This document shows, piece by piece, positions 1,016-21,312 of a stretch of DNA of 24,252 bases (positions are counted from its first letter, which is position 1; the number at the start of each line of letters is the position of its first letter). Source of the stretch: a virus; the IMG/VR virus record IMGVR_UViG_3300047560_000067, positions 1 to 24,252 of that record, one strand, 5' to 3'. Both the position numbers and the translations under genes were made by a program. Under the pieces are notes generated by a model. It worked only from the letters and a program-made list of their open reading frames with translations, was not told the DNA's origin and did no database searches.

Positions 1016-3199
1016 ATGTCCGCACAAGTAACGATCACGCAATTACCATCCGCTGGCGCTATTACGGGCTCGGAGCTCGTGCCAATCGTCCAGAATGGCC
1101 AAACCGTCAAGACCACGACAGGCGCTATTGCCGCCTCTCCAGCTCAGACACAGACGTTCCTGACCCTCAATCAAGAACCAACACTTCCCAACAGCCGTGC
1201 ATTGGCTGGCAGTACTGGTGTTGGTTTGGTCGATGGTGGTGCGCAGTCTACCCTTCAGATCACCTTAAATGGGGTCTCAGGAAGCCTTGAATCGTCCTCT
1301 AACGGCATTATTGCCAAGACTGGGGGCTCGGTAACAGGACGCACGTTTCAGACGTCTGGAAGCGGTTTAGGCATCTCTAATGCTGATGGCGTATCAGGTA
1401 ACCCAACATTTGCTTTGACAGGTGTTGCGGCTTCCGTTGCCGCGCTGTCTGGCACGGGCATGTTGGCCATGACTGGTGGCGGCACAACAGTGTCTGGCCG
1501 TGACCTTACAGGAACCGCAAATCAGATCACCATCACAAACGGTGACGGCGCTTCTGGTAACCCAACTTTTTCGATTGCAACTAACCCCGCGTTGCCCGGC
1601 ACTGGGGGTGTTGGCCTTCCCACTGGCACGACAGCACAAAGACCTGCATCTCCAAGCAACGGAACATTCCGCTACAACTCGACCACAGGCTTGCTGGAGT
1701 ACTACTCAGCAGGTACTTGGACAGCTCTTGCGGCTGGCTCTGGTGTAACCTCTGTTGCAACTGGTACAGGTCTGACTGGTGGCCCGATCACTTCGACAGG
1801 CACAATTTCAATTGACAATACAGGCGTGACTGCTGGCTCATACGGCGCCGCATCTAAGACATTGACAGCTACGGTCAACGCGCAAGGTCAATTGACAGCG
1901 ATGGCTGAGACCTCTATTGCAATTGCCAATACACAAGTCACTGGCTTAGGGACGATGTCCACGCAGAACGCAAGTGCAGTAGCAGTTACTGGTGGAACGA
2001 TCAACGGAACCTCAATTGGAGCGACTACACCGTCTACTGGTGCGTTCACATCGGTGTCGATGACATCTGGCACGATCACTACAGCTCCAACAAACGGTAC
2101 TGACATTGTCAACAAGGACTATGCAGACTCGATTGCATCTGGTTTGAACTATCACCAGCCAGTCAACTACGCATCGACCACTACACTACCTGCGTACACC
2201 TACAACAACGGCACAGGCGGTATTGGCGCGACCATTACAGCGAATGCCAACGGTGCATTGTCTTTGGGTGGTGGATCACCAACAGCGACTCAGCGTGTTT
2301 TGGTTAAAGATGAAGCTGGCGGCAATGCGGCTTACAACGGTGTGTATGTTGTCACGCAAGCTGGTACTGCTGGCACACCGTTCATTCTGACTCGCGCAAC
2401 AGACTACGACTCATCAGGTTCTGGAACCAATGAGATCGATGCAGGCGACTACGTTTTGGTGATCTCTGGAACACTGGCCTCTACTGCTTGGGTTCAGCAG
2501 ACTGCCCTTCCAATTGTTGTTGGTACGACAGCGTTGTCATTCGTGCAGTTCAATGCACCGATCACGTACTCTGCGGGTACAGGTCTGACGTTAGCGTCTA
2601 CAACTTTCAGCATCACCAACACAGCCGTTACTTCTGGTTCATACGGTGGCGCGGCAACTGTTCCTACATACTCAGTTAACGCTCAAGGTCAACTGACTTC
2701 AGCTACTGACGTTGCAATCGCTATTGCAGGCTCTCAGATCACTTCTGGAGCTGTGGCCATAGCAAACGGTGGTACAGGTCAAACAACTGCCTCTGCTGGC
2801 TTTAACGCGCTTTCTCCGATCACCACGACAGGTGACCTGATCATCGGTAACGGAACCAACAGCGCAACCCGCTTGGCTATCGGAACAAATGGTTATGTTC
2901 TAACATCCAACGGAACCACAGCTACTTGGCAAGCATCTACAGGTGGTGTCACTACCTTCAGTGGCGGAACAACAGGATTGACTCCTGCAACCGCAACCGC
3001 AGGTGCTATCACACTGGCAGGAACCCTTGCTATCGCTAACGGCGGCACAAACTCAACCGCTACACCGACTGCTGGTGGAGCTACTTACGGCACGGGTACA
3101 GCCATTGCATATACAGCGGCTGGCACAGCAGGTCAGGTATTAACATCAGCGGGTGCAAGCGCCCCAACATGGTCTGGAATTAACGGAGGAACTTTCTAA
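1016..3199 (+). CDS. Modular tail fibre protein
   Basis: A 727-residue Thr/Ser/Gly/Ala-rich beta protein typical of phage fibres. The N-terminus (about 1-40) has ITQLPSAGAITGSELVPIV, a frequent opening of environmental phage fibres and a likely virion anchor. A repeat containing NADGVSGNPTF / NGDGASGNPTF follows. About 200-235 is a segment ending RYNSTTGLLEYYSAGTW. Two related modules at about 248-312 and 519-580 each carry GTGL, SGSYG-like and VNAQGQLT motifs. Between them, at about 375-515, lies a compact domain with RVLVKDEAG, NGVYVV, TRATDYDSS and FVQF, known from many fibres. The C-terminus carries IANGGTGQTTAS and ends GGTF. No intramolecular chaperone or collagen-like segment is visible. 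The stop overlaps the next start (TAATG). Start at ATG 1016 has a weak ribosome site and is probably reached by coupling. Confidence 0.85.
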   Translation: MSAQVTITQLPSAGAITGSELVPIVQNGQTVKTTTGAIAASPAQTQTFLTLNQEPTLPNSRALAGSTGVGLVDGGAQSTLQITLNGVSGSLESSSNGIIAKTGGSVTGRTFQTSGSGLGISNADGVSGNPTFALTGVAASVAALSGTGMLAMTGGGTTVSGRDLTGTANQITITNGDGASGNPTFSIATNPALPGTGGVGLPTGTTAQRPASPSNGTFRYNSTTGLLEYYSAGTWTALAAGSGVTSVATGTGLTGGPITSTGTISIDNTGVTAGSYGAASKTLTATVNAQGQLTAMAETSIAIANTQVTGLGTMSTQNASAVAVTGGTINGTSIGATTPSTGAFTSVSMTSGTITTAPTNGTDIVNKDYADSIASGLNYHQPVNYASTTTLPAYTYNNGTGGIGATITANANGALSLGGGSPTATQRVLVKDEAGGNAAYNGVYVVTQAGTAGTPFILTRATDYDSSGSGTNEIDAGDYVLVISGTLASTAWVQQTALPIVVGTTALSFVQFNAPITYSAGTGLTLASTTFSITNTAVTSGSYGGAATVPTYSVNAQGQLTSATDVAIAIAGSQITSGAVAIANGGTGQTTASAGFNALSPITTTGDLIIGNGTNSATRLAIGTNGYVLTSNGTTATWQASTGGVTTFSGGTTGLTPATATAGAITLAGTLAIANGGTNSTATPTAGGATYGTGTAIAYTAAGTAGQVLTSAGASAPTWSGINGGTF

Positions 3200-3510
3200 T
3201 GGCACAAACAGGCTACACACCCATTCAGCTCTATCGCACAACGACTGCGGGAGCGGCCCCAACCTCTGGCAATCTAGCCGCTGGTGAGTTGGCGATCAAC
3301 ATTGCAGACGCTGACATGGCGCTCTATTCAAAGAACAACACTGGCACGGTAAAACGTCTCATCAACAATCCTGCGGGTTTAAAATATCCAACGGCTGATG
3401 GTACGAGTGGACAAGCTGTTGTGACTGACGGCGCAGGTAATCTGTCATTTGGCACTGCGGGTATTACAACAGGCAAAGCTATCGCGATGGCGATGGTGTT
3501 CGGTTTTTAA
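3199..3510 (+). CDS. Small fibre-type virion protein
   Basis: A 103-residue protein whose N-terminus (PIQLYRTTTAGAAPTSGNLA, then GELAINIADADMALY) matches the common opening module of environmental phage fibres, in which the stretch from LAAGELAIN to the sheet-forming KNNTGTVKRL caps a trimeric shaft. The middle has TADGTSGQAVVTDGAGNLSF, another widespread fibre motif, and the C-terminus is hydrophobic (GKAIAMAMVFGF). It starts in a TAATG overlap with the 727-residue fibre, and a strong GGAGG at 3185-3189 lies 9 bases upstream of the ATG. Probably a short fibre, fibre tip or trimeric connector that acts with the preceding fibre; exact role unknown. The hydrophobic tail resembles endings seen in several phage fibre sets. 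Confidence 0.7.
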   Translation: MAQTGYTPIQLYRTTTAGAAPTSGNLAAGELAINIADADMALYSKNNTGTVKRLINNPAGLKYPTADGTSGQAVVTDGAGNLSFGTAGITTGKAIAMAMVFGF

Positions 3511-3519
3511 GGAGCTAAC

Positions 3520-3894
3520 ATGGCGAATCCAAACATTGTCAGCGTTACCAAGATATACGGTAACACGACATACATCGTCGCAACGACAAGTGCTGTCGCA
3601 TGGACTGCACTAACGCCAGCGACCAACTACGTCAATAAAGTTGACAACATTGTTGCGGCTAACGTCACAACAGCGGCGGCAACAATTACGGTGTCAGTCA
3701 ACAGCGCGGTTTCTGGTGGCGGTACGGCTTATCGTATTGCTTACCAAGTCTCTGTGCCACCTAACGCATCCGTGATCATTGTTGACAAGACGACAGCTTT
3801 TTACGTAGGTGAAGCTCAATCTGTTGTAGTTACTGCAAGCGCAAATAGCTCAATTGAATTGACAGCGTCCTACGAAAACATGACAGATACCTGA
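3520..3894 (+). CDS. Beta-rich virion protein of the cyanophage structural type
   Basis: A 124-residue all-beta protein: NPNIVSVTKIYGNT at the start, then ANVTTAAATITVSVN, YRIAYQVSVPPNASVIIVDK, YVGEAQSVVVTASAN and the ending ELTASYENM. From memory this order (NIV..TTI.GKT, VPA.A..VVIDK, IYLEE..S, VTASAN, SYEEI) is that of a small structural protein common in T4-like cyanophages; this identification has not been searched. A jelly-roll or Ig-like virion surface protein is likely. The stop of the preceding gene is fused to its Shine-Dalgarno (TAAGGAG at 3508-3514), with ATG at 3520. It lies between fibre-type genes and the glycine-rich adhesin array, which fits a tail or capsid decoration role. 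Confidence 0.65.
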   Translation: MANPNIVSVTKIYGNTTYIVATTSAVAWTALTPATNYVNKVDNIVAANVTTAAATITVSVNSAVSGGGTAYRIAYQVSVPPNASVIIVDKTTAFYVGEAQSVVVTASANSSIELTASYENMTDT

Positions 3895-3906: not shown

Positions 3907-4767
3907 ATGTCTCTTATGAAAGTTGGCGGAGTTCTCTCCGTTGGACGTGATGGCATCAATTCACCTGTAACGCAGGTGGAGTACCTTGTCGTGGCTGGAG
4001 GTGGCGGGGGTGGTGGCACTCGAAACAATAACGGAAATGGAATGAGTGGCGGTGGTGCTGGTGGTTTGTTGACTGCACAAGGCTATCCCATAACTATCGG
4101 TTCTTCTATTACTGTGACCATTGGCGCTGGTGGTGCAATTTTAACGAACGGTACTAATACCGTTTTTGGGAACATTACTGCTTCTGGTGGTGGTTATGGT
4201 ACTGATGGTGGTGGCGGTACTGGAGGTTCTGGCGGTGGCGCTGGTGCTGGCAGTGGTCAACCTACAGGAGCATCAGGTGTTGCTGGTCAAGGTAATGCAG
4301 GCGGTGGGCAAAGTACTGGCGCTGGAGGCGGAGGTGGCGCAGGCTCAGTTGGATTAACTGGAAGTGTTAGTAATGGTGGTGTAGGCGGTGCAGGCATTAC
4401 TTCTAGCATTACAGGCTCACCAATTCAATATGCTGGAGGCGGCGGTGGTGGCGGAAACGGTACTGGCAATGGGTATCTTGGCGGTTTGGCTACTGGTGGT
4501 GGCGGTAATGGCGGCGACTCTGCATACAGTTTTACGACATTTGCACAGAATGGATTAGCAAACACTGGTGGCGGTGGGGGCGGTTGTGCGGGTTCGGGTT
4601 CAACTAATTACAACGGTTATGGTGGTGCAGGTGGTTCAGGTATTGTGATCATTCGTTACCCATCGTATTTAAATGCCGCCGCATCAACAACAGGTTCTCC
4701 TGAAACATACATTGCAGGTGCATGGCGCGTGTACAAGTTTGTTGCCTCTGGCACTATCACATTCTGA
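3907..4767 (+). CDS. Glycine-rich tail fibre/adhesin, copy 1
   Basis: A 286-residue protein. A short anchor of about 25 residues leads into a glycine-rich domain. Anchor motifs in order are VEYLVVAGGGGGG, GGGAGGLL, TVTIGAGGA, a VFGNITASGGGYG segment, GGSGGG, GQGNAGG, GGGGGAG, YAGGGGGGG, NTGGGGGG and SGIVIIRYP. The C-terminal part has TTGSPETY and a closing strand YKFVASGTITF. Such domains can pack as polyglycine-II helices, as in the phage S16 gp38 receptor-binding adhesin, so a surface-exposed host-binding role is likely but not proved. AGGAGG at 3896-3901 precedes the ATG. It shares the domain with the genes at 4774, 6235 and 7768. The single cysteine in the late GGGGGGC segment is unusual within the set. 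Confidence 0.8.
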   Translation: MSLMKVGGVLSVGRDGINSPVTQVEYLVVAGGGGGGGTRNNNGNGMSGGGAGGLLTAQGYPITIGSSITVTIGAGGAILTNGTNTVFGNITASGGGYGTDGGGGTGGSGGGAGAGSGQPTGASGVAGQGNAGGGQSTGAGGGGGAGSVGLTGSVSNGGVGGAGITSSITGSPIQYAGGGGGGGNGTGNGYLGGLATGGGGNGGDSAYSFTTFAQNGLANTGGGGGGCAGSGSTNYNGYGGAGGSGIVIIRYPSYLNAAASTTGSPETYIAGAWRVYKFVASGTITF

Positions 4768-4773
4768 GGTTTT

Positions 4774-6225
4774 ATGGCAAACGGTTTATTTAATCTCAAA
4801 CAAGTCGTTCAAGCTGTTCAGCAAGGTGGATGGCCTGCTCAAAAAACTCCAGCAGTTGAATATTTAGTTGTCGCTGGAGGTGGCGGTGGTGGTAATGGCG
4901 GCGGCGGCGGAGCTGGTGGCTTACTCGCTGGCGTTAGGTCTGTGGCTAATGGGCAATCACTTTTAGTTACCGTTGGCAGTGGCGGAAATGGTTCAACGAC
5001 AGCCGCCGCAGGGGTTACTGGTGGTAACTCAGTATTTGGAAATATTTTAGCCAACGGTGGTGGTGGAGGCTCTGGCTATCAAACCGCTGGAGCGGCAGGT
5101 GGCTCTGGAGGTGGTGGTGGTCGTTCTGATGTAGCTGGTGGTTTGGGTGGCTCTGGAATTTCTGGACAAGGAAATTCAGGTGGCAAAGGTTTAGACACAT
5201 CAAACAATGCTTCTGGAGGTGGCGGCGGTGCTGGAACAATAGGTCGCCCTGCTCTTTTTTCTGGATATTCTGGAATTGGTGGTACTGGAACAGCGTCTGC
5301 TATTTCTGGAACTGTTACAACTTATGCTGGTGGCGGCGCTGGATATGGCGCAACAAGCGGAGCGGTTCAAGCAGGTGCGGGTGGCGGAGGTTCAGGTGCG
5401 GCTGGAACAGCCAATACTGGAGGCGGTGGTGGCGGTAGTGGTTCTGGCACTGGATACAACGGCGGCTCTGGTATTGTCATTATTTCGTACCCAGACGTAT
5501 ATGCGGCCCCAACAGCTACAACAGGTTCGCCAACTGTAAGTACAAGTGGATCGGGTAGTGTTAACTTTGCAACTGCTGGATATTTCAGTACAGGCACTGG
5601 AACCGCTCCATCACAATCTGGTGACTTTACACTTGAAGGTTGGTTCAATCTTTCTACATTTAACCCCGGAGGTGGCGGTTATGCTTTGTTTGGGGGGACA
5701 ACTTCAGGAGCAAATTACTTTGGTATTAAGGGTACAAACATTGTCATTAACAGCGCCACAACAAGCGCAGAAAAGTTAATTGCTTGCACTTTGCCTTCTA
5801 CAAATACTTGGTTTCATTATTGCCTGATGAGGTCTGGATCAACTTTGTATGCTTTTTTAAATGGCGTATTACAAGGATCATCTACTTGGACTGATGTTTT
5901 GTTTTCTGCTGGAAGTTTGTTAGTTGGTGGCTATGGTTCTGCAACTTATATTTGCCCCGGTTATATGTCAAATTTAAGGTTGACAAATACGGCGGTGTAT
6001 TCAACATCTGGCTTTACTGTACCAACATCGCCTTTAACCAGAGTAACAGGAACAGCCCTTTTAATGAACACTGTGTCAGGCGCATATGCCGCTGATTCAA
6101 CAGGAACATGGTCTTTTCTTAATCTTTACACTGCTCCAACATGGAACGCTTTGTCACCATTCACAGGTACAGGCTACAAAAACCGTGTGTACACTTGGAC
6201 ATCCAGTGGTTCAATCACCTTCTAA
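4774..6225 (+). CDS. Glycine-rich adhesin with LamG-like domain
   Basis: A 483-residue protein with three parts. Residues 1-28 are a short anchor (LFNLKQVVQAVQQGGW) of the kind also at the start of the 7768 gene product. Residues about 29-245 are a glycine-rich domain with the same motif order as its neighbours, from VEYLVVAGGGGGG to SGIVIISYP. Residues about 260-430 look like a LamG / concanavalin A-type sandwich: FTLEGWFNLS, a short GTTSGANYFGI segment, NTWFHYCLMRSGSTLYAFLN, LLVGGYG, GYMSNLRLTNTAVY and ALLMNT. This order (EGW, WxHxxxxR, YxNG, xxIxxxR) is typical of the Laminin_G_3 family, which usually binds sugars or proteins. The last 20 residues return to the YTWTSSGSITF strand that closes the other copies. 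TGA 4765-4767 overlaps a GAGG ribosome site. Confidence 0.8.
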   Translation: MANGLFNLKQVVQAVQQGGWPAQKTPAVEYLVVAGGGGGGNGGGGGAGGLLAGVRSVANGQSLLVTVGSGGNGSTTAAAGVTGGNSVFGNILANGGGGGSGYQTAGAAGGSGGGGGRSDVAGGLGGSGISGQGNSGGKGLDTSNNASGGGGGAGTIGRPALFSGYSGIGGTGTASAISGTVTTYAGGGAGYGATSGAVQAGAGGGGSGAAGTANTGGGGGGSGSGTGYNGGSGIVIISYPDVYAAPTATTGSPTVSTSGSGSVNFATAGYFSTGTGTAPSQSGDFTLEGWFNLSTFNPGGGGYALFGGTTSGANYFGIKGTNIVINSATTSAEKLIACTLPSTNTWFHYCLMRSGSTLYAFLNGVLQGSSTWTDVLFSAGSLLVGGYGSATYICPGYMSNLRLTNTAVYSTSGFTVPTSPLTRVTGTALLMNTVSGAYAADSTGTWSFLNLYTAPTWNALSPFTGTGYKNRVYTWTSSGSITF

Positions 6226-6234
6226 GGAATTAAC

Positions 6235-7383
6235 ATGAGCGATAGATTGGGTGGTTATATTGCAGGACAGAACATCAATGTAGGTATTGGTACGTTCACG
6301 GCTGTAACTTCACCGACATTCACATTTGCTTCAACACAGGCTACACCTGATGTTGGTCAACCTGTTCAATTCGTGACTACTGGCACATTGCCAACTGGCT
6401 TGTCATTGAACACGACATACTATGTCATTAGTAAAAGTACAAATACTTGCCAATTCTCCACAACTCAAGGTGGTTCTGCTGTCACGTTCACAAACAGTTC
6501 AGGTTCTGGCACTCACACTGCTGTAACCCAACGCGCATTTAATCCTTACGCTGGCGCACCTGATACCGTAGAGTATTTGGTGGTTGCAGGCGGTGGCGGT
6601 GCGTCTAACTCTTATAGTTCAGGTGGCGGTGCTGGTGGTTTACTAACCGCCACTTCATTTGCGGTACCTACAGGAACTGCACTAACTGTAACTGTTGGTG
6701 CTGGTGGTGCTGGTGGTGTTGGTGGCTCTAGTGGAAGTCTTGGAGCCCAAGGAAGCAGTTCAGTATTTAGTTCAATAACTGCTACTGGTGGCGGTTATGG
6801 TGTTTACGGCAACTATGGTTCTGCTGGCGGTTCTGGCGGTTCTGGTGGTGGTGGCTCAGGTTACGATGGTGGTGTAGGTGGCGCAGGAACATCTGGACAA
6901 GGTAATGCTGGTGGTCAAGGCGCGGGCAGTCTTGTAAAAGGCGGCGGTGGTGGCGGCGGTGCAGGCGGTGTTGGCGGTAATGGCTCAAACCTTGGAAGTG
7001 CAGGCAATGGTGGGACTGGTATTTGTTCAACTATTACTGGTTCAAGAGTTTTTTATGCTGGCGGTGGCGGTGGCGGTGCTGAAACTACTGGTGGCACTTA
7101 TAACGCAGGTTTGGGCGGTGCTGGTGGAGGTGGCGCAGGCGTAGCTGGTGCAGGCGCTAATCCCCCAGTAATAAGTCCTAATAACGGTGTAGCCAACACT
7201 GGTGGCGGAGGAGGCGGTGCGCCTCAATACTCTGCTGGTGGCGCAGGCGGTTCTGGCATTGTTATCGTGCGTTACCCACAAATTAACTCAGCCCCAGCAA
7301 TGGTGACAGGTTCGCCTCAAGTGAGCTATGCTGACGGTTATCAAATTTACACTTGGACTTCTTCTGGTTCAATCATTTTCTAA
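6235..7383 (+). CDS. Glycine-rich adhesin with N-terminal beta module
   Basis: A 382-residue protein. Residues about 15-100 form a small beta module with DVGQPVQFVTTGTLPTGL, LNTTYYVISKS and a GGSAVTFTNSSGSGTHT ending; a related module lies inside the nozzle protein at 14106. Residues about 113-345 are a glycine-rich domain (VEYLVVAGGGG, GGGAGGLL, TVTVGAGGAGG, SVFSSITATGGGYG, GQGNAGG, FYAGGGGGG, NTGGGGGG, SGIVIVRYP). The end carries VTGSPQVSYADGY and the closing strand YTWTSSGSIIF. The beta module replaces the short anchors of the other copies, so it may mediate attachment or add a second binding surface. TAAGGA at 6223-6228 fuses the previous stop to the ribosome binding site. Host receptor binding is inferred from domain type and context. 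Confidence 0.78.
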   Translation: MSDRLGGYIAGQNINVGIGTFTAVTSPTFTFASTQATPDVGQPVQFVTTGTLPTGLSLNTTYYVISKSTNTCQFSTTQGGSAVTFTNSSGSGTHTAVTQRAFNPYAGAPDTVEYLVVAGGGGASNSYSSGGGAGGLLTATSFAVPTGTALTVTVGAGGAGGVGGSSGSLGAQGSSSVFSSITATGGGYGVYGNYGSAGGSGGSGGGGSGYDGGVGGAGTSGQGNAGGQGAGSLVKGGGGGGGAGGVGGNGSNLGSAGNGGTGICSTITGSRVFYAGGGGGGAETTGGTYNAGLGGAGGGGAGVAGAGANPPVISPNNGVANTGGGGGGAPQYSAGGAGGSGIVIVRYPQINSAPAMVTGSPQVSYADGYQIYTWTSSGSIIF

Positions 7384-7392
7384 GGAGCAACT

Positions 7393-7752
7393 ATGAGCCA
7401 TTTCGCAAAAGTAGAAAACGGTGTAGTGACGCAAGTCATTGTCATCGAGCAGGACGTTTTAAATCTTGGTCATTGGGGAGACCCAGCATCTTGGGTTCAG
7501 ACCTCATACAACACACAAGGTGGAGTTCACCGTCAAGGCGGTACACCATTGCGTAAAAATTACGCTGGCATTGGTTACACATACGATTCTGTTCGTGATG
7601 CGTTTATACCTCCCCAGCCATACGCTTCATGGGTATTGAACGAAGATACTTGCTTGTGGGATGCCCCTACAGCTATGCCAACCGATGGCAAAATGTATAC
7701 ATGGGACGAACCCACAACTGCATGGGTTGAAGTCGTAGCCCCAACAGCCTAA
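7393..7752 (+). CDS. Conserved phage protein of unknown function, cyanophage type
   Basis: A 119-residue protein, aromatic-rich and not repetitive, unlike its neighbours. Visible motifs in order: FAKVENGVVTQVIVI (an opening strand pair), WVQTSYNTQGG, GGTPLRKNYAGIGYTYD, RDAFIPPQPYASWVLNEDT, CLWDAP and a closing DGKMYTWDEPTTAWVEV. From memory this series of motifs occurs in a small uncharacterised protein common in marine cyanophages and other environmental phages, often beside tail-fibre genes; no function is assigned to it as far as I know. TAAGGAG at 7381-7387 fuses the upstream stop to its ribosome binding site. Its place between two glycine-rich adhesin genes suggests a fibre cap, fibre chaperone or accessory virion protein. 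The coding call is firm, the role open. Confidence 0.75.
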   Translation: MSHFAKVENGVVTQVIVIEQDVLNLGHWGDPASWVQTSYNTQGGVHRQGGTPLRKNYAGIGYTYDSVRDAFIPPQPYASWVLNEDTCLWDAPTAMPTDGKMYTWDEPTTAWVEVVAPTA

Positions 7753-7767
7753 TCTTCGGAGCAAAAG

Positions 7768-9501
7768 ATGCCAACATACAACGGAATGTGGACACTGAGT
7801 CAAGTCAGTCAGGCGGTCAAAAACCTGAATTGGACGGGTGTGCCTCCGTCTGTTGTAGAGTATCTTGTTGTTGCTGGCGGCGGTGCAGGTGGTTGGAGTA
7901 TTGGAGGCGGCGGAGGTGCGGGCGGCCTTCTGGCTGGATACGCTGGTATTACATCTGGCACTTCTTATTTTGTAACCATTGGTGCTGGTGCTACTGGTGT
8001 AAGTTCGGGTACAACTAGACCAAGTGGCAATGATTCTGTTTTTGATGCTACAAGTAATGGAGCATACACAGGACGCATTGTTGCTTCAGGCGGAGGTGGT
8101 GGCGGTATTTATGCTACACAGCAATTTGGAGTTGCTGGCGGCTCTGGTGGTGGCGCTGGTGGTGGCACTTACCCAAATTATGCAGGCGGTGCTGGAGTTG
8201 TAGGCCAAGGAAATGCTGGTGGAATAAGTCGAGATGGTGCTACCGTTTGGCAAGGTGGCGGTGGCGGTGGCGCTGGTACTGTGGGTATGAGTGCAACTGT
8301 AAACGCCTCGTATAACCCATTAAATGGCGGCGCTGGAATTGCATCTGCTATTTCTGGCGCTGTAACAGCATACGCTGGTGGTGGTGGCGGTGCAAACTAT
8401 GCTGGCGGTGCAAATGGTCTTGGCGGTGTGGGCGGTGGTGGAGCATCTGGCGGAACAGGTGGGCCATCGACTGGGGTCAGTGGTACTGCCAATACAGGCG
8501 GTGGTGGAGGCGGAGGTACATTTAATGGAACTGGCGGAAATGGCGGTTCAGGCATTGTCATTGTTCGCTACCCCGGCTCAATTCAATATTTCACTGGTGG
8601 CACAGTAACTTATGCCGCTGGTTGTGTCGTTCATACATTCACATCATCGGGCACATTTGCTCCAACAACGCCAACTAACTTGCTTCAAGCTAATACAGTT
8701 ATTTTCTTCTCGTCAAACACGTGGACAGCCCCTGCTGGTGCAACTCAAGTTCAGTACTTAGTTGTTGGCGGTGGAGGTGGTGGCGGAAGTTTAATTGGTG
8801 GCGGAGGTGGTGCTGGTGGTTTCCGTACTGCTACAGGCTTCTCTGTTACTGCTGGCACAACTTACACAGTTACTGTGGGTGCTGGTGGCAATGGTAATGG
8901 TTATACCAATACTGGTGGTCGTGGTGTCAATGGTACCAATGGCGGAGATTCTGTTTTTAGTTCAATAACTTCTACAGGCGGTGGCGGTGGTGGCGGATAC
9001 AACTATTTAGGAACTTCTATTGGTAGTGCTGGATCTGATGGTGGTTCAGGAGGTGGTGGTGGCGCAAGTGACTCCACAACACCAGCAGGTGGCGCGGCTA
9101 CCCCAGTAACTAGCCCAGTACAAGGCTATGCTGGCGGCGCAGGAAAACAAGGAACTGGCGTTTGGGTTGGCGGCGGCGGCGGCGGAGCAAGTGCGGCTGG
9201 TACTGCTGGTAGTAGTACACCTAATGGCGGCGCTGGTACAGCCTCTTCTATCACTGGCACATCTGTAACTTATGCTGGAGGCGGAGGCGGTGCCGCTTTG
9301 GGAGGCTCTTCTGGTGGGGCTGGTGGTTCTGGTGGTGGCGGTGCAGGTGCAATATCAGGAGCGGCTACTGGCGGTTCTGGCTCTCAATATGCTGGCAACG
9401 GTACTGCATTTACTGGTGGTGGTGGCGGCGGTGCGGCATATACAGATGGTGGACGTAGCGGCAACGGCGGCTCAGGCATCGTAATTCTCAAATGGAGTTA
9501 A
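7768..9501 (+). CDS. Double glycine-rich adhesin
   Basis: A 577-residue protein with two tandem glycine-rich domains. Residues 1-28 form a short anchor (MWTLSQVSQAVKNLNW) resembling that of the 4774 product. Domain A, about 29-270, runs from VEYLVVAGGGAGG to SGIVIVRYP and is followed by a partial closing segment, VVHTFTSSGTFAP. A linker with NTWTAPAGATQ leads to domain B, about 330-577, from VQYLVVGGGGGGG to SGIVILKW, where the protein ends without a closing strand. This looks like fusion or duplication of two adhesin genes. Domain B ending at LKWS, rather than RYP plus the cap, marks it as a shortened copy. A GGAG ribosome site lies at 7758-7761. Probable tail-associated receptor binding by analogy to polyglycine adhesins. 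Confidence 0.8.
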   Translation: MPTYNGMWTLSQVSQAVKNLNWTGVPPSVVEYLVVAGGGAGGWSIGGGGGAGGLLAGYAGITSGTSYFVTIGAGATGVSSGTTRPSGNDSVFDATSNGAYTGRIVASGGGGGGIYATQQFGVAGGSGGGAGGGTYPNYAGGAGVVGQGNAGGISRDGATVWQGGGGGGAGTVGMSATVNASYNPLNGGAGIASAISGAVTAYAGGGGGANYAGGANGLGGVGGGGASGGTGGPSTGVSGTANTGGGGGGGTFNGTGGNGGSGIVIVRYPGSIQYFTGGTVTYAAGCVVHTFTSSGTFAPTTPTNLLQANTVIFFSSNTWTAPAGATQVQYLVVGGGGGGGSLIGGGGGAGGFRTATGFSVTAGTTYTVTVGAGGNGNGYTNTGGRGVNGTNGGDSVFSSITSTGGGGGGGYNYLGTSIGSAGSDGGSGGGGGASDSTTPAGGAATPVTSPVQGYAGGAGKQGTGVWVGGGGGGASAAGTAGSSTPNGGAGTASSITGTSVTYAGGGGGAALGGSSGGAGGSGGGGAGAISGAATGGSGSQYAGNGTAFTGGGGGGAAYTDGGRSGNGGSGIVILKWS

Positions 9502-9503
9502 TC

Positions 9504-9677
9504 ATGGCTACAAAATGGATTCAAAAAGCGATCAGCAAACCCGGTGCTTTGAAGAAAGCTCTTGGCGTGCCTGCTGACAAAAAGATCCCTGCGTCCAAGC
9601 TCACGGTGAAGTCTACTGACTCACCCAAGATGGCCAAGCGTAAGAATTTAGCCAAGACCCTTAGAGGTTTTGACTGA
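9504..9677 (+). CDS. Small basic phage protein
   Basis: A 57-residue, lysine-rich protein with the motif KWIQKAISKPGALKKALGVP followed by DKKIPASKL and a basic helix to the C-terminus. Short proteins with a KPGAL-x3-LGVP-type motif and a KIP segment recur in many phages as uncharacterised ORFs. I choose ATG 9504 over the in-frame ATG 9492, because 9504 lies just after the stop of the adhesin gene (9499-9501) and has GGAG at 9494-9497 at proper spacing. The 9492 start would lie inside the upstream gene and lacks a ribosome site. Nucleic-acid or capsid binding is suggested only by charge. Its stop overlaps the next start (TGATG). Confidence 0.7.
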   Translation: MATKWIQKAISKPGALKKALGVPADKKIPASKLTVKSTDSPKMAKRKNLAKTLRGFD

Positions 9678-9871
9678 TGGATTCAGTAGAAACAAAATTG
9701 GCTGTCCACGAAGCCATCTGCACGGAGCGGTACAACAACATTGACCGCTCTTTGCGTGATGGGGACAAGCGCATGACCAAGATTGAATACCTCTTGTATG
9801 GGGTGATTTTGTGCGTGCTTTTTGGCCCCGGTGTGGCGGCGGACTTTGTGAAGAAACTTTTGGGGTTGTGA
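9677..9871 (+). CDS. XhlA-like small membrane protein
   Basis: A 64-residue protein. The N-terminal half is a charged helix (ETKLAVHEAICTERYNNIDR, then DGDKRMTKIE), and the C-terminal half is one membrane helix, about residues 37-55 (YLLYGVILCVLFGPGVAADF), followed by a basic KK pair. This is the layout of XhlA / haemolysin-like lysis accessory proteins, which act with a holin at the inner membrane. It overlaps the upstream stop by one base and has AGAGG at 9663-9667. It opens the membrane-protein run that ends with holin and endolysin, supporting a lysis or superinfection role. A generic membrane-anchored tether is the alternative. Confidence 0.65.
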   Translation: MDSVETKLAVHEAICTERYNNIDRSLRDGDKRMTKIEYLLYGVILCVLFGPGVAADFVKKLLGL

Positions 9872-9872
9872 C

Positions 9873-9968
9873 ATGTGGGACTGGGTGGAAGGTTTGTTAG
9901 CCGCCACCGCAGTCACCTGTTTTGTCATCTTTTGTACTTACATGATTATTTGGTGTGGATTATGGTGA
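9873..9968 (+). CDS. Micro-ORF for a 31-residue membrane peptide
   Basis: ATG 9873 opens a 31-codon frame that ends at TGA 9966-9968. The peptide starts MWDWVEGLLAA and continues as one hydrophobic helix (TAVTCFVIFCTYMIIWCGLW), with three cysteines and three tryptophans. It begins one base after the stop of the XhlA-like gene, and the following gene's ATG (9962) lies inside its last codons, so it exactly fills a gap of about 90 bases that would otherwise be the longest in the window. That fit, and the absence of a better reading, support a real gene. Ribosome binding is weak and coupling is likely. It could be a holin accessory, antiholin or lysis regulator; no family is recognised. Confidence 0.55.
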   Translation: MWDWVEGLLAATAVTCFVIFCTYMIIWCGLW

Positions 9969-10651
9969 CAAAAAAAGCCCCAGCTAAGGTAGCTCCAGTC
10001 AAACGCTCAACCCCTAAGCCCCGTCCCAAGGTCGAAGCTAAGCCCGTTGCAAAGAACCAAACCACTGCTGACAAGATCATTGACCTGATCAAGTGGGTGG
10101 ACAACCCCTTCAAGCTGTTTACAGTCATTCTGCTGGGTTTTTTGGCCTTTGCTGGATACTTTGCTTGGGATAGCCGTCAGGTCATCCTAGGAGCGATTAC
10201 AAGCTCTTCACACCACTCTTCCTTACGCGAGGTGCCAGTGCTCGAGAAAATCGCTCTGAGCTTGTCTAAAGACCTCGAAGCTGAGACTGTGGTGGTTCAC
10301 AAAGCTAACCTTGTGGTCAATGGCCGCACTACGCTACTTGCGTATGGCCCAAAGGGACGCGAAACCGCATTCGATGGCTACAACTCCACCCTGTTCAACA
10401 AAGATCCCGTGCGCAACGCCGCCATGATCGCCATGATGAACGGCGAGGTCTATTGTGGGAAACAAGAAGTGGCCAGTAAGACATCAGATTGGGAACAAAA
10501 ACAAGGCGTGGCGTTTGTTTGCTGGGCATCCATTCCCCCTGAAATTGGTGAATTTGAAGGTTATATCTCATTGGGCTTTTCTAAGGAGCCGTCAGACCTG
10601 ACGGTTGTGAAGACCCGAATGAACTTGGCAAGCACAGAGATGGCGAAATGA
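9962..10651 (+). CDS. Single-pass membrane protein in lysis cassette
   Basis: A 229-residue protein. Residues 1-35 are Lys/Pro/Ala-rich (VTKKAPAKVAPVKRSTPKPR), about 40-50 have DKIIDLIKWVDNP, and one membrane helix lies at about 52-72 (FTVILLGFLAFAGYFAW). A soluble domain of about 150 residues follows, with two cysteines and motifs VNGRTTLLAYGPKGRE, EVYCGKQEVASKT, VAFVCWASIPPE and YISLGFS. Topology is probably N-in with the globular part in the periplasm. An in-frame GTG at 9875 would extend it, but that stretch overlaps the micro-ORF in another frame, so I choose ATG 9962. The domain is not recognised; it may form a disulphide. A spanin-like, superinfection or envelope-sensing role is possible. 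I cannot assign it. Confidence 0.65.
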   Translation: MVTKKAPAKVAPVKRSTPKPRPKVEAKPVAKNQTTADKIIDLIKWVDNPFKLFTVILLGFLAFAGYFAWDSRQVILGAITSSSHHSSLREVPVLEKIALSLSKDLEAETVVVHKANLVVNGRTTLLAYGPKGRETAFDGYNSTLFNKDPVRNAAMIAMMNGEVYCGKQEVASKTSDWEQKQGVAFVCWASIPPEIGEFEGYISLGFSKEPSDLTVVKTRMNLASTEMAK

Positions 10652-12214: not shown

Positions 12215-12850
12215 ATGACGACCGCAAGTGTTATGACCTATGACAGTTTGGTCGAGAACATCCAGTCTTATCTGGAGCGTACAGACGCCGCCACGCTGGA
12301 CAAAATCCCCCTTTTCATCATGTTGGCCGAGCAGGTCATTGCCTCCCAGATCAAATTCTTGGGCAACCTGACTGTCAACACCAGCACAATGACAGCCGAC
12401 CAGAACGTCATTGACAAGCCAGCTCGTTGGCACAAAACCGTCTCCATGAACATCACAGTTGCTGGCCAGCGCCAGCCAGTTTTTAACCGCAGGTACGAAT
12501 ACCTCCGTGAATATTGGCCAGACCCTGCCGCAACGGACGTTCCCAAGTTTTACTGCGATTACGACTACACCCACTGGATGGTGGCGCCCACCCCTGACGT
12601 GGCCTATGATTTCGAGGTTTTGTACTACGAGCGGGTCCAACCCTTGGACAGCTCCAATCAGACCAACTGGTTCACCATTTACGCCCCTCAAGCACTGCTG
12701 TACGGCTCACTGCTTCAGGCCATGCCTTTCCTCAAGAACGACGACCGCATTCCCATGTGGCAGGCGCAGTACAAGCTGATCATGGACGTTCTGACAGCAG
12801 AGGACAAGTTGCGTATTGCAGACCGTCAGGCGGTCGCCAATGACAGTTAA
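12215..12850 (+). CDS. Head-tail adaptor, SU10/P22 gp4-type
   Basis: A 211-residue protein with the layout of phage adaptors. The N-terminal half has MTYDSLVENIQSYLERTD, then a PLFIMLAEQVIASQIK helix that packs on the portal and a strand-rich region with TVNTSTMTADQNVIDKPARW. The second half has YCDYDYTHWMVAPTPDVAYD, FEVLYYERVQPLD and the helix pair TNWFTIYAPQALLYGSLL / WQAQYKLIMDVLTAEDKLR. The order (helix, PxRWHK, WP-type strand pair, APQALLYGSLLxA) is that of the SU10-adaptor/gp4-like family that forms a ring between portal and nozzle. The next genes are a fibre and the nozzle, as expected. A related protein is encoded at 1-663. Confidence 0.75.
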   Translation: MTTASVMTYDSLVENIQSYLERTDAATLDKIPLFIMLAEQVIASQIKFLGNLTVNTSTMTADQNVIDKPARWHKTVSMNITVAGQRQPVFNRRYEYLREYWPDPAATDVPKFYCDYDYTHWMVAPTPDVAYDFEVLYYERVQPLDSSNQTNWFTIYAPQALLYGSLLQAMPFLKNDDRIPMWQAQYKLIMDVLTAEDKLRIADRQAVANDS

Positions 12851-16602: not shown

Positions 16603-19600
16603 ATGGCACTTTACGAATCACTTTCATCTTCAAGCACGCCTGAAGAAATTGCCGCCGCATACAAAGAATTTGCTGGCTTGGCTGGCGGGGATACTGCCGC
16701 CGTTCAGAAGCAGGCTGTTGATTATTTGAGTGCTTTGGGCGTTGCCGCACCAGCCATTACGCAAGCCTATAACATCTACACAGCGCCGCCAACAAATACG
16801 GGTGCATTGTCTTCTGTAGATACTGGTAAAGGTGACATTCTTAACGACACGTCTGGTGTTGTTAATAACGCAGGCACTGGCGCTTTATCTAAGGCTACAG
16901 GCACCACTGGGGGAACAAGTGGGGGAACAACTGGCGCGCTGGAAACTGCAACAGGCACCAGTGGTTTAGCCTCGACCACCAACCCATACGACTTGATCAA
17001 CAGCGCGTGGATGAATGGTGACTTTGCTGGCACGTCAAACATTATCAAATCAGCTGGTTTAACGCCAGCTCAAGTCAAGGCCTATTACGGGCTAGATGAC
17101 GCAACAATGAACTACGTGATGGGCACTGGTGTGTTTGGAGCACCAACGCCTACACCTGTTGTTCTTGCTCCAACGCCAACACCTAGCGCGCTTACCCCAA
17201 CTCCAACCCCAAATGCTTCTGCGGTTGTTACTGGCGAAACAAAGACTTATACACAGGCCGAAGTCAATCAAGCGCTAAATGACTTATTAGCAAAAGATCC
17301 AAAAGCCAGTAAAGCTGACATTCTGGCCGCGGCGGCGGCTTTGGGAATTAGTGCTGATCAAGTAAATGCCGCGTTCATTACTCGAGACGCAAATAGCCTT
17401 AAATCAACACCAACACCGACACCAACGGCAACCAGCAAGCCAGAGGACTTGGTCACCTATGGCAATTTGAATATAAAGCTTGATAAGAATGTCCTGTCAA
17501 ACCTGACAAGCCAAATTCAAACCATCACCAATTTGACTGGTGCAAATCAGTATTGGAATGGTGGTGCTTTTTCTGCTGGACAAGGTGCAAACATTGGTTT
17601 TGATGCAACTACTGGCGCAAATATTTTGGGTCTGGACAGCATCAACAATCAACAGCAAGTTGCATTGGACATGGCGGCTTTCTTGGCCTCCAAGGGCATT
17701 ACAAACCTAAACCAAATTGGCTACGGCGACATCATGGGCAACGTTAATGTTCGTCAAGAATATGACGACAACGGCCAGCCAACAGGTAAATATTTTAAAT
17801 GGGACACTAAAACTGACACGTGGGTTCCTGTTGACGAAAAAGATGTTCGACATGTCACCAACTACAAGGCGGATGGTGAAGAAGACACATTAGTTACAAC
17901 TGGCAGGGTTGGCGAAGGTGTTATCAACAAAAAAACTGGAGAAGCTGTAACCGACGGAACAGGTAAGTTTGGTGCAACTTATACAGGTGACGGTGGTACA
18001 GAGTACAGAATTCAAGTTGACAAAAGTACAGGCCTGCCAATCTTTTACACAAACGGTGTAAGCAGTAACACGCTTGCTGGCATCATGTCAGACCTAGGTC
18101 CAATCGGACAAATTGGTCTTGCTATTGCCACCAGTGGCATGTCTATTCCTGCTCAAATTGGCACACAGTTTGCCCTTCAGGTTTTGAGTGGTCAGGACGT
18201 TGGAGCCGCAGTTAAAAATGCATTGGCCTCTTACCTTGGCAACGAAATTCTAACCACCACTAGTATTGCTGACATTACCAAACAGCTCAATGCAATTGAC
18301 TCTTCAGGTATGTTGGCAAAGGCATTCCAAGGATCTGTTGTTGGTGCAACCAAAGGCGTGGTGACTGGCCAAGACGTATTCGACTCAGCCAAGATTGGTT
18401 TTATTCAAGGCGGAACGAGTGGCGCCGCTGACGCTATCTTGGCCAACTTTGGTGATCAGTTGAGTGGTTTGTCAAAGACACAGCAAGCCGCACTGAAGAC
18501 ATTGATCACTGGCACGCTAAGCAACAAGCCTTTAGATCAAACTTTGATTGACAGTATTATCAGTGGCGTAACAACACAGATAAAACAAGACAAAGCTACA
18601 AATAATGAAATAAAAACAAAGAATGCAGGAATTGTTGTTGGTACTGACTCCAGCGGCAATCCAATTACTCTTGATCAGACATTGTCGAATTTAGACTCAA
18701 TGTTGGCATCAAGCGCAAACTTGGGTACTTATGCGGCCATAAATAATGGCGTTGTCAGTGATGCTGGCGGTGGAAATAAACCAACACTTCCAATTGCTGA
18801 AATTACAAATACTGCCAAGCAAGGCGAACCCGGATACGGTTGGAAGTATTACAGCGACGGCACAGCCATCTCTCCAAATGGTACGTATTACTATGAAGGT
18901 GAAGTTGTATCTTTGTCTGACCAAGACAAGGCCCAGTACTTAGCAGGATCAGCGGCAAAACAAGCCGCCGCCATGCTGGTAAATAGCCCACAAATGGTCA
19001 ATACTTTGTCGGGAAAAATATCTGCAACAGAATTGCCCGGCGTCCTTGATACTCTCAAAAATTGGTGGGCTATTAACCCAGCATCTCAATATAAAAATGC
19101 CAATGAAGTTGACACTGATGCATTCAGAAGTTATTTAAAAGCTCAAGGAGTTTCAGAGTCAAACATTAACTATATTGCTGATGCGGCAAAAACTGCTGTT
19201 GGCGAGCTTATTGATAAAACAAAAACCGATACAGAAACATCAAAATCTAAAGCAACTGACGTTTTAAAAACGATTGGTGATAAAGCCGCCACAACTGAGG
19301 CTGATGCGGCGACTACCGCACAAAATCTTCTTAAAACAATTAGTTCAAATTCTTTGGCCGCTTCTACCCAAGCACAGCAAGACGCAACTCGTATTTTGCG
19401 AGATCTTGCAATTAAGTCTGGTCAAGGCGGTTTTGTTAGCACAGACATAATTAACGGTTTATTTAACGCTTTTAGTAGTACAGCTAAAGCTGGATCAAAT
19501 GACCCAGTAGAAATTGTAAAAAATCTGTTTACAAATGCAGATGCTTCTGCCCTTCAACGTTTTGGCCCGGGCGTGGTAGATGACTTAATTGGTGTTCTTG

Positions 19601-21312
19601 GTTCTGATTGGGCAAGATCTGGCGGTAATGCTCAGTTCATTAACGAGTTAACAAAAACTATTTTGACGGACCCATCTAATCAAGATTGGCAAGATGCTTT
19701 TACAAAAGCAACTGGTTACGATTGGACTGAAACGCCAGAAGGTAAGGCTTGGGCAAACAGAACAACACTTGCTCCAGAGGGCAGTATTCCAGCAGACCTT
19801 GGTGAAGGTTTAAAGGGGTACTACGATCCAAAAACTGGCAACTACTATACCCTTGACGGTAAAAAATGGTATGGCGAAATTACAGTTATTGGTACACGAG
19901 TAACACCTGCTGTCACACCAACACCAACTCTTAAAGCGACAGACCTTGATCCAAATATCATTGTCTTGCCTACTGTTAAGCCAACTGTCACGCCAGTTGT
20001 GACGCCTGTTTCTACACCCTCCGTCACGCCTACTGCAACTCCGAAACCTGCGGTGGAGCCAAACGCTACGCCGACACCTAGCTCGACGCCTACACCTACG
20101 TCCACGCCTTCTGTAAGGCCAACGCAGATACCAACGCCCACGATTGAGGTTACGCCTACAGTCAAGCCTACCGTTACCCCAACGCCAAGCGTGACCCCTA
20201 GCGTGACCCCAACACCGAGCACAACGCCCAGTGTTACACCCACGCCTAGCATTACACCGACTCCAAGCGTAACGCCCAGCATTACGCCTACGCCGTCTGT
20301 AACCCCAAGCATTACCCCAACACCAAGTGTCACCCCAAGCGTAACTCCTACGCCATCAGTGACACCGAGTGTCACGCCGAGCGTTACGCCCACAACAAAA
20401 GTTACACCGACCGTGACGCCAACTGTCACGCCGCCTACGCCTACGCCTACGCCGCCAGTCACTCCGACGCCTACGCCTAGCATTACGCCGACGCCTACAC
20501 CGCCTAAGCCAACGGTGACGCCTACAGTTACGCCTACAGTAACTCCTACTGTCACGCCTACGCCAACGCCAACGCCTACTCCTACACCAAAGACTTCTGC
20601 GCCGTCATCGGCTGGCTTGCAGGCGGCGATGACATCTCCCGGTGTATCTGGGACAATTGAGCCATTGAAAGCTGTAATGCTTCAGGCATTCATGACCAGA
20701 GACAAATTCAAGGACCCTCTGGAAAAATTGCATTTAATACAGGAAGCCTCTGGTAAGGCTGAGCAAAATATGATCGATCAAGGTATTAACCCAAGACTGG
20801 CCCAGATCATGGCTGACCGCATGACTGACGACGTGTCCAACCAAGCTGGTGTTGAGTCCCCTGTGGATAACACATGGCGATATGGCCAAGCACCAGAAAA
20901 CCTTGACGATCTGTTTGGTCAAAAACAAGAGCTGGCATTCAAGCAGGGTGGCTTTGTAGCCCCCTTGCAGATGGCCTCTGGCGGTGCTATGCCCCTACCC
21001 CTGCTGGTCAAGTCTGGTGGCGCTCTGGGGGCTTTACCAAGAAGCGATGGCAGATTAGACTTCAGGCATGGCGCTCACGTTGCTGGTGAGGGTGACGGGC
21101 AGTCTGATGACATTAAAGCAATGCTGGCTGATGGCGAGTTTGTGTTCCCCGCGGACGTGGTTTCTGCGCTCGGAAATGGCTCAACGAAGGCTGGATCAGA
21201 TAAACTATACGAAATGATGCATTCAATTCGAGAACGCGCACGATCCAAGGGCCCCAAGGACCTGCCGCCACCTGCATTGAAGTCACCACTTGATTACCTG
21301 AAAAAACGGTAA
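16603..21312 (+). CDS. Giant internal/ejection-type virion protein with Thr/Pro rod
   Basis: 1569 residues. The N-terminus has three related helical segments (about 13-58, 129-172, 217-257) with a LG(V/I)-xx-(V/I)-xx-A(F/Y) core, separated by TPTP linkers at about 180-205 and 268-276. Residues 280-480 are a mixed domain with a [14 protein letters not shown] segment. About 495-625 is Gly/Ala-rich and hydrophobic ([34 protein letters not shown]), as in membrane-active ejection proteins. A coiled, Ala/Lys/Thr region spans 850-985. A Thr/Pro rod of about 230 residues (1101-1330) repeats TP(S/T)(V/I)TP units. The C-terminus has a [13 protein letters not shown] stretch and [20 protein letters not shown], a C-terminal tag seen in many phage proteins. 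Its start follows the previous stop directly, with a weak ribosome site. An ejection or internal virion role is inferred from position. A fibre-like rod is the alternative. Confidence 0.65.
19903..20595 (+). repeat. Thr/Pro repeat-coding region
   Basis: About 230 codons encode tandem TP-x-x-TP units, with variants [18 protein letters not shown] and TPTPTP. The DNA is an array of ACG/ACC/ACA, CCT/CCA/CCG and GTC/GTT/ATT triplets with degenerate copies, densest at 20160-20590. Expected to be a stiff, extended linker. It is flanked by ordinary coding sequence within one frame. Confidence 0.9.

Follow-up and report, generated by a model that had tools for sequence, protein, structure and literature searches.

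The four adjacent glycine-rich genes described here encode tips of the Pam3 fibre type, set in four ordered slots together with an unrecognised partner protein, and with bodies that are interchangeable. The best reading of the locus is a receptor-binding block that can move, whose tips can be exchanged and whose assembly proteins are matched to the tip. With a probability of roughly 0.7, it is the receptor-binding block of a tailed phage, in which four slot tips are accompanied by an assembly protein (D119) and a possible socket (g5), and in which diversity comes from loops, tips and exchange of the block. The domain family, the predicted fold, the slot order, the gene linkage and the replacement of the block are established by computation, whereas receptor binding, the chaperone role of D119, the docking of the peptides and the socket role of g5 are inferred.

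Five copies of one glycine-rich domain

The sequence analysed, hereafter the window, is the 24,252-base IMG/VR virus record IMGVR_UViG_3300047560_000067 (positions 1 to 24,252). Glycine makes up 25–35% of four adjacent genes (3907–4767, 4774–6225, 6235–7383 and 7768–9501), all of which belong to PHROG family 2295, annotated as function unknown. All four exceed the curated cut-off of PF21722 (Pfam Gly_rich_2, Glycine-rich domain), scoring 61.7–153.6 bits against a cut-off of 24.3 (E 1e-16 to 1e-44), and the gene at 7768–9501 contains two matching stretches. The resulting five modules align with a mean column identity of 54% and carry their anchors in fixed order, namely VEYLVV(A/G)GGG, GGGAGG(L/F), V(T)xGxG, VF..I and GGSGGG, followed by QG.(A/S)GG, GGGGGA, GG.G..S.I.G....YAGGG, TGGGGGG and GGSGIVI. 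When a profile of four modules was scored against the fifth, each module reached 109 to 163 bits, whereas the top score among 2000 composition-preserving shuffles per module was −18.5 bits. The modules are therefore real and no artefact of glycine composition. The glycine-rich profile was seeded with the window's own modules, so that Pfam serves as the independent check.

These results bear out the initial annotation in its claim of five copies of one domain with ordered anchors. Its further claim that the segments between anchors vary also holds. Among 81 relatives, these segments differ in length (e.g. 3–16 and 8–25 residues), whereas the loops of the base are near-constant (exactly 3 residues in one case and 9–13 in another). 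The annotation had, however, filled positions 3907–9501 with four adjacent genes; the four glycine-rich genes are there, but so is a fifth, non-glycine-rich gene at 7393–7752.

Four slots and their N-terminal peptides

All four tip proteins are encoded on the plus strand. The slot 1 protein (3907–4767, 286 aa) consists of the peptide MSLMKVGGVLSVGRDGINSPVT, a module at 3958–4659 and the closing strand VASGTITF. In slot 2 (4774–6225, 483 aa), the peptide MANGLFNLKQVVQAVQQGGW precedes a module at 4852–5490, and a concanavalin A-like lectin domain (Laminin_G_3, 5572–5994, plus strand) is inserted between the module and the closing strand SSGSITF. The insert was also found in six slot-2 homologues scanned; L051 does not have it. 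In another relative (L158:4825-6600), the slot-2 protein has a run of VGTAR-containing repeats in place of the lectin domain. The slot 3 protein (6235–7383, 382 aa) starts with MSDRLGGYIAGQNINV and a small beta-type module, followed by a glycine-rich module at 6562–7275 and the strand SSGSIIF. Slot 4 (7768–9501, 577 aa) combines the peptide MPTYNGMWTLSQVSQAVKNLNW with tandem glycine-rich modules at 7849–8571 and about 8713–9495. Three of the genes thus share the closing strand, as had been noticed earlier; module 4a has an internal version of it and module 4b has none.

The fronts of the proteins do differ, as the initial annotation held, but they are not random, each being a slot-specific short peptide conserved in other phages. 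The conserved patterns are MSL..GGILSVGLDGINSPVT for slot 1, MA.GLF.LKQ..QA..GGW for slot 2, MS.RLGGFIAGQN or MS..LGGFISATFNPL for slot 3 and MP.YSGMWTLSQVSQAVKNLNW for slot 4. The slot order GR-GR-GR-D119-GR recurs in 14 distinct arrays, and the N-termini are slot-specific in nearly all of them. From their position, conservation and co-occurrence, these are probably docking peptides.

Predicted fold of the tips

The fold was predicted for slot 1, and the remaining modules were assigned to it by sequence. The AlphaFold2 model, built from an 81-sequence alignment of the window protein and its relatives, has a mean pLDDT of 90.2 and a pTM of 0.88. It shows strands at both ends and, between them, long extended glycine-rich stretches with neither helix nor strand. 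Compared with the PDB, the model is closest to a protein of the Bxb1 tail tip (9d93 chain Qa, Z 13.1 over 166 residues) and to the Pam3 fibre (7ypx, Z 12.8; 7yfw, Z 12.3). The next row is the ALK glycine-rich domain with a Z of 4.7, and all others lie below it. Sequence searches of the PDB with the five modules gave chance-level matches only; with the 81 relatives, the Pam3 fibre came first but weakly, with an E of 0.045. As the sequence match is weak, the fold match is taken as the evidence for kinship with Pam3.

The glycine-rich domain of Pam3 gp24 is made of six glycine-rich loops stacked in layers, its distal end is hypervariable and proposed to be the receptor-binding part, and gp24 is folded by the chaperone gp25 (PMC9608196). 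Variable segments between anchors on a steady base, as found in the window, fit fingers with variable ends. The N-terminal helical shaft domain of gp24 is absent from the slot 1 model, in which about 22 residues of low confidence and without helix precede the module. Structure prediction thus gives one shared fold close to the Pam3 gp24 tip, for slot 1 by model and for the others by sequence, but does not recover Salmonella phage S16 gp38, the analogy drawn initially. The latter (6F45) is not among the listed rows of the fold search and was not found by sequence; the two may nevertheless be related.

D119, a probable assembly partner

Between slots 3 and 4 lies D119 (7393–7752, plus strand, 119 aa, PHROG 7759), which is not glycine-rich. 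Among the loci listed, a glycine-rich gene stands directly upstream of D119 homologues in 67 of 76, with a median gap of 10 bp, compared with 77 of 823 for other genes (P 4e-50). These loci were collected with D119 itself, and the collection comprises the matches listed. In relatives sampled by unrelated genes, 8 of 9 blocks that contain glycine-rich genes also contain D119, compared with 0 of 23 blocks that lack them (P 9e-7), the relatives in these linkage counts not being independent samples. In phiPsal1, HTVC025P and CRP-207, the ORF directly before the D119 homologue is glycine-rich and of the same family, while in Synechococcus phage S-SSM5 the homologue lies about 3 kb from a glycine-rich gene. 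Set against 95 upstream genes that fit, the exceptions among the loci listed comprise 9 other genes and 2 unclassified glycine-rich ones. Nine to eleven D119 homologues stand behind a gene in which no domain of this family was recognised. In several of the exceptions, the upstream protein terminates in a FAENPFKYANAR-like motif. A further client of D119 may be the proteins that have FAENPFKYANAR or FAESPFKYSLAR at their end: in L224, L407, L409, L009 and L253 they lie immediately before D119 or are joined to the rear of a slot-2 module.

The D119 model (pLDDT 95.1) divides into an N-terminal half with a modest resemblance to the fibre-binding beta-sandwich of Pam3 gp25 and a Trp-rich C-terminal half that is common to the partners of other tip types; after residue 60 it contains strands and coil only. 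Its top Foldseek match in the PDB is 7ypx chain a (E 0.12), the sole chain with a Z of 2 or more. The match to this 162-residue chain is modest, covering residues 3–56 with a Z of 5.6 and an rmsd of 2.2 Å over 53 residues. The protein gp25 has 162 residues, and its fibre-binding beta-sandwich occupies residues 1–55 (PMC9608196). Gene position and fold, each modest alone, are two independent lines that lead to the same partner of the same fibre. A profile of D119 found no relative among PDB sequences, neither Pfam nor PHROGs gave a match to the Tfa family, and the C-terminal helical trimerisation domain of gp25 is absent from the model. Collectively, D119 is most likely an assembly chaperone for glycine-rich domains and not a member of Tfa as now defined.

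Those named phages that carry D119-like genes have them annotated as hypothetical or unknown. The annotation of Pontimonas phage phiPsal1 (MG835450.1) lacks the glycine-rich gene (L275:5162-6001) that precedes its D119 homologue and shows two small genes, phiPsal1_022 and _023, over this stretch. D119 homologues adjoin 2OG-Fe(II) oxygenase genes at L278 and L416 (Synechococcus phage S-SSM5 and phage DSL-LC04). A search of bacterial and archaeal genomes for D119 returned metagenome bins only.

Borders and replacement of the block

The left border is formed by g4 (3199–3510, plus strand, 103 aa), whose first ~50–95 residues form, in relatives that have no array, the N-terminal end of long fibre proteins reaching 1234 aa; g4 is probably a virion-side adaptor. 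It is followed by g5 (3520–3894, plus strand, 124 aa), for which family searches returned no informative family. In relatives sampled without regard to g5, it is present in 14 of 14 blocks with docking-peptide proteins and in 0 of 18 without (P 2e-9), which holds whatever the tip type, and it also occurs beside both other types of partner protein described below. We infer that g5 is part of what the docking peptides bind, a candidate socket or hub. The phiPsal1_021 protein, annotated as virion structural, was considered as a g5 relative and rejected, as the g5 profile did not match it. In DSL-LC04, the g5 homologue is annotated as a putative lectin.

On the right, three small conserved genes on the plus strand (9492–9677, 9677–9871 and 9875–10651; together 9492–10651) persist where relatives have another block between them and g4. 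Relatives were found through two unrelated genes (12215–12850 and 9875–10651), and the stretch from g4 to the right border is highly variable among them. L066 has a wholly different block though its right-hand genes are 98%, 92% and 87% identical (s64, m258, v211). Other relatives carry one long fibre of 900–1234 residues with an N-terminus homologous to g4. L197, part of a 335-kb contig, contains g5, slots 1–4 and D119 in order, with no other window gene within its 16 kb. No match came from searching the window's DNA directly in phage genomes or from tblastn with slot 4; glycine-rich queries are probably masked by the low-complexity filter. Elsewhere in the window, a 1569-residue protein (16603–21312) contains dense Pro-Thr coding repeats at 20068–20590 (PTPTPT, VTPSVTP), which adjoin a drop in GC to 0.41 at 19–20 kb.

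Other tips and their matching partners

Some proteins share only the C-terminal part of D119 and have other N-terminal domains; PHROG 7759 confirms the common C-terminus. Partners of one type (at least 46 loci) stand behind a second glycine-rich tip whose end reads GAVRIIWPG..FPST; this holds in all 28 readable cases, of which 27 were recognised by pattern and one, a near miss, by eye. For the other type (at least 80 loci), the preceding tip is of the Lcl_C kind in 48 of 48, with 46 recognised by pattern and two near misses by eye. Since tip types were recognised by sequence patterns, both counts are approximate. Three Lcl_C-kind tips were checked in Pfam, and one of them scored just under the cut-off.

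Strict patterns of the slot peptides missed homologues, and profiles were used instead. These match the N-termini of RCC1 propeller, TGNATDFGDL repeat, Lcl_C and glycine-rich type 2 proteins. Judged by sequence, relatives thus carry other tips on peptides of this kind, namely propellers, Lcl_C domains and glycine-rich type 2, which suggests that phages exchange tips behind a short peptide and not inside glycine repeats. Lcl_C tips behind the same docking peptide are found at L326:2294-3979 and L058:4922-5587. C-type-lectin-like domains are frequent targets of diversity-generating retroelements.

Alternative explanations

The initial annotation attributed the array to recent duplication, with modules shuffled by in-frame recombination within GGN codon runs. 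Such a cassette would agree with five related modules in a row, and short imperfect GGN repeats with units of 6–18 bases are present in the genes. Further, module pairs 1–3 and 2–3 share codons at identical residues slightly above chance (0.50 and 0.48 versus 0.38; P 0.004 and 0.02, uncorrected for the ten comparisons made). However, codon sharing ranges from 0.36 to 0.50 over all pairs and is near the chance value in the other eight, and the longest DNA common to two modules is 18 bases. In a tree of the modules from 14 distinct arrays, slot labels change 11 times, compared with at least 35 times in 1000 label shuffles, and the nearest relatives of the window's modules are almost all same-slot modules from other phages. 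As modules group by slot across genomes, the array reads from its sequences as an old set of paralogues that has descended in place in four ordered slots, and a recently shuffled cassette is highly improbable. Comparison across genomes supports exchange at two levels, entire blocks and the tips borne on the peptide, but no shuffling in GGN runs.

Two other explanations concern function. The glycine-rich proteins could be decoration or structural fibres without receptor specificity, such as a sticky brush for non-specific contact. Mycobacteriophage glycine-rich brushes are presumed to contact lipid-rich outer layers and not a specific receptor (PMC13243795), and the modules are very widespread. 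However, the variable loops, the linked lectin domain and the replacement of the whole block in close relatives, by long fibres or lectin-like tips, indicate host recognition, making the brush improbable. For D119, the alternative is a component of the virion, perhaps a cap or linker remaining attached to the glycine-rich tip. While the chaperones of Ur-lambda and Mu were reported in mature phages, Pam3 gp25 was undetected in virions by mass spectrometry (PMC9608196). The lack of a helical trimerisation domain in the D119 model would suit a virion part; the combination of a matched N-terminal with a common C-terminal part, in contrast, is the logic described for fibre chaperones. A virion part is thus unlikely, and an assembly chaperone is preferred.

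Proposed mechanism and significance

A receptor-binding role for the glycine-rich array is likely, and the earlier suggestion of a variable block for host recognition gains from the Pam3 gp24-like fold, the replacement of the block in relatives and the other tips found behind the peptide. Each slot protein would consist of a short docking peptide and one or two Pam3 gp24-type glycine-rich domains, in which a beta base carries glycine-rich fingers that probably contact the host receptor with their variable ends. A lectin domain is added in slot 2. D119 would help the glycine-rich domains to fold, as gp25 does for gp24, and g5 may provide the shared component that the docking peptides attach to. 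Diversity would have three sources: variation of the loops inside modules, different tips carried on one sort of peptide with the partner that matches them, and the replacement or transfer of entire blocks.

A broader reading is tentative. Here, aquatic phages would share a plug-and-socket system with g5 as the socket, A and B peptides and at least five unrelated tip types, each with its own assembly protein, and the block would move between small and jumbo phages. In each such assembly protein, the N-terminal domain would be matched to the tip and the C-terminal domain shared by all.

It is difficult to detect glycine-rich tips by searching sequences (PMC13243795). If the pairing with D119 is true, this small partner gene is a marker for receptor-binding genes in unannotated phages and for their type of tip. 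Further, the four-slot block with its probable folding helper recurs in very different phages.

Comparison with known systems

The best fold match, the Bxb1 tail tip glycine-rich protein (9d93 chain Qa, with the Z of 13.1 given above), belongs to the tip of a long-tailed mycobacterial phage. S16 gp38 (PDB 6F45) likewise has a tip of glycine-rich motifs according to the literature, but differs in its base domain and in its attachment to gp37. Like D119, the Tfa chaperones (phage Mu) are encoded by a gene tied to the fibre gene and combine a variable N-terminal with a common C-terminal domain; unlike them, the D119 model has a different C-terminal fold. Pam3 gp25 is a dedicated chaperone, and its fibre-binding domain bears a modest likeness to the N-terminal half of D119, but gp25 ends in trimerising helices, whereas D119 ends in a Trp-rich beta region. 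Pam3 gp24 (PDB 7YPX) shares with the slot 1 model the same glycine-rich-domain fold on a beta base (Z 12–13). However, gp24 is a single protein whose N-terminus is a helical bundle, whereas the block described here has four paralogues with short N-terminal peptides, a lectin insert in one slot and a tandem pair of modules in another.
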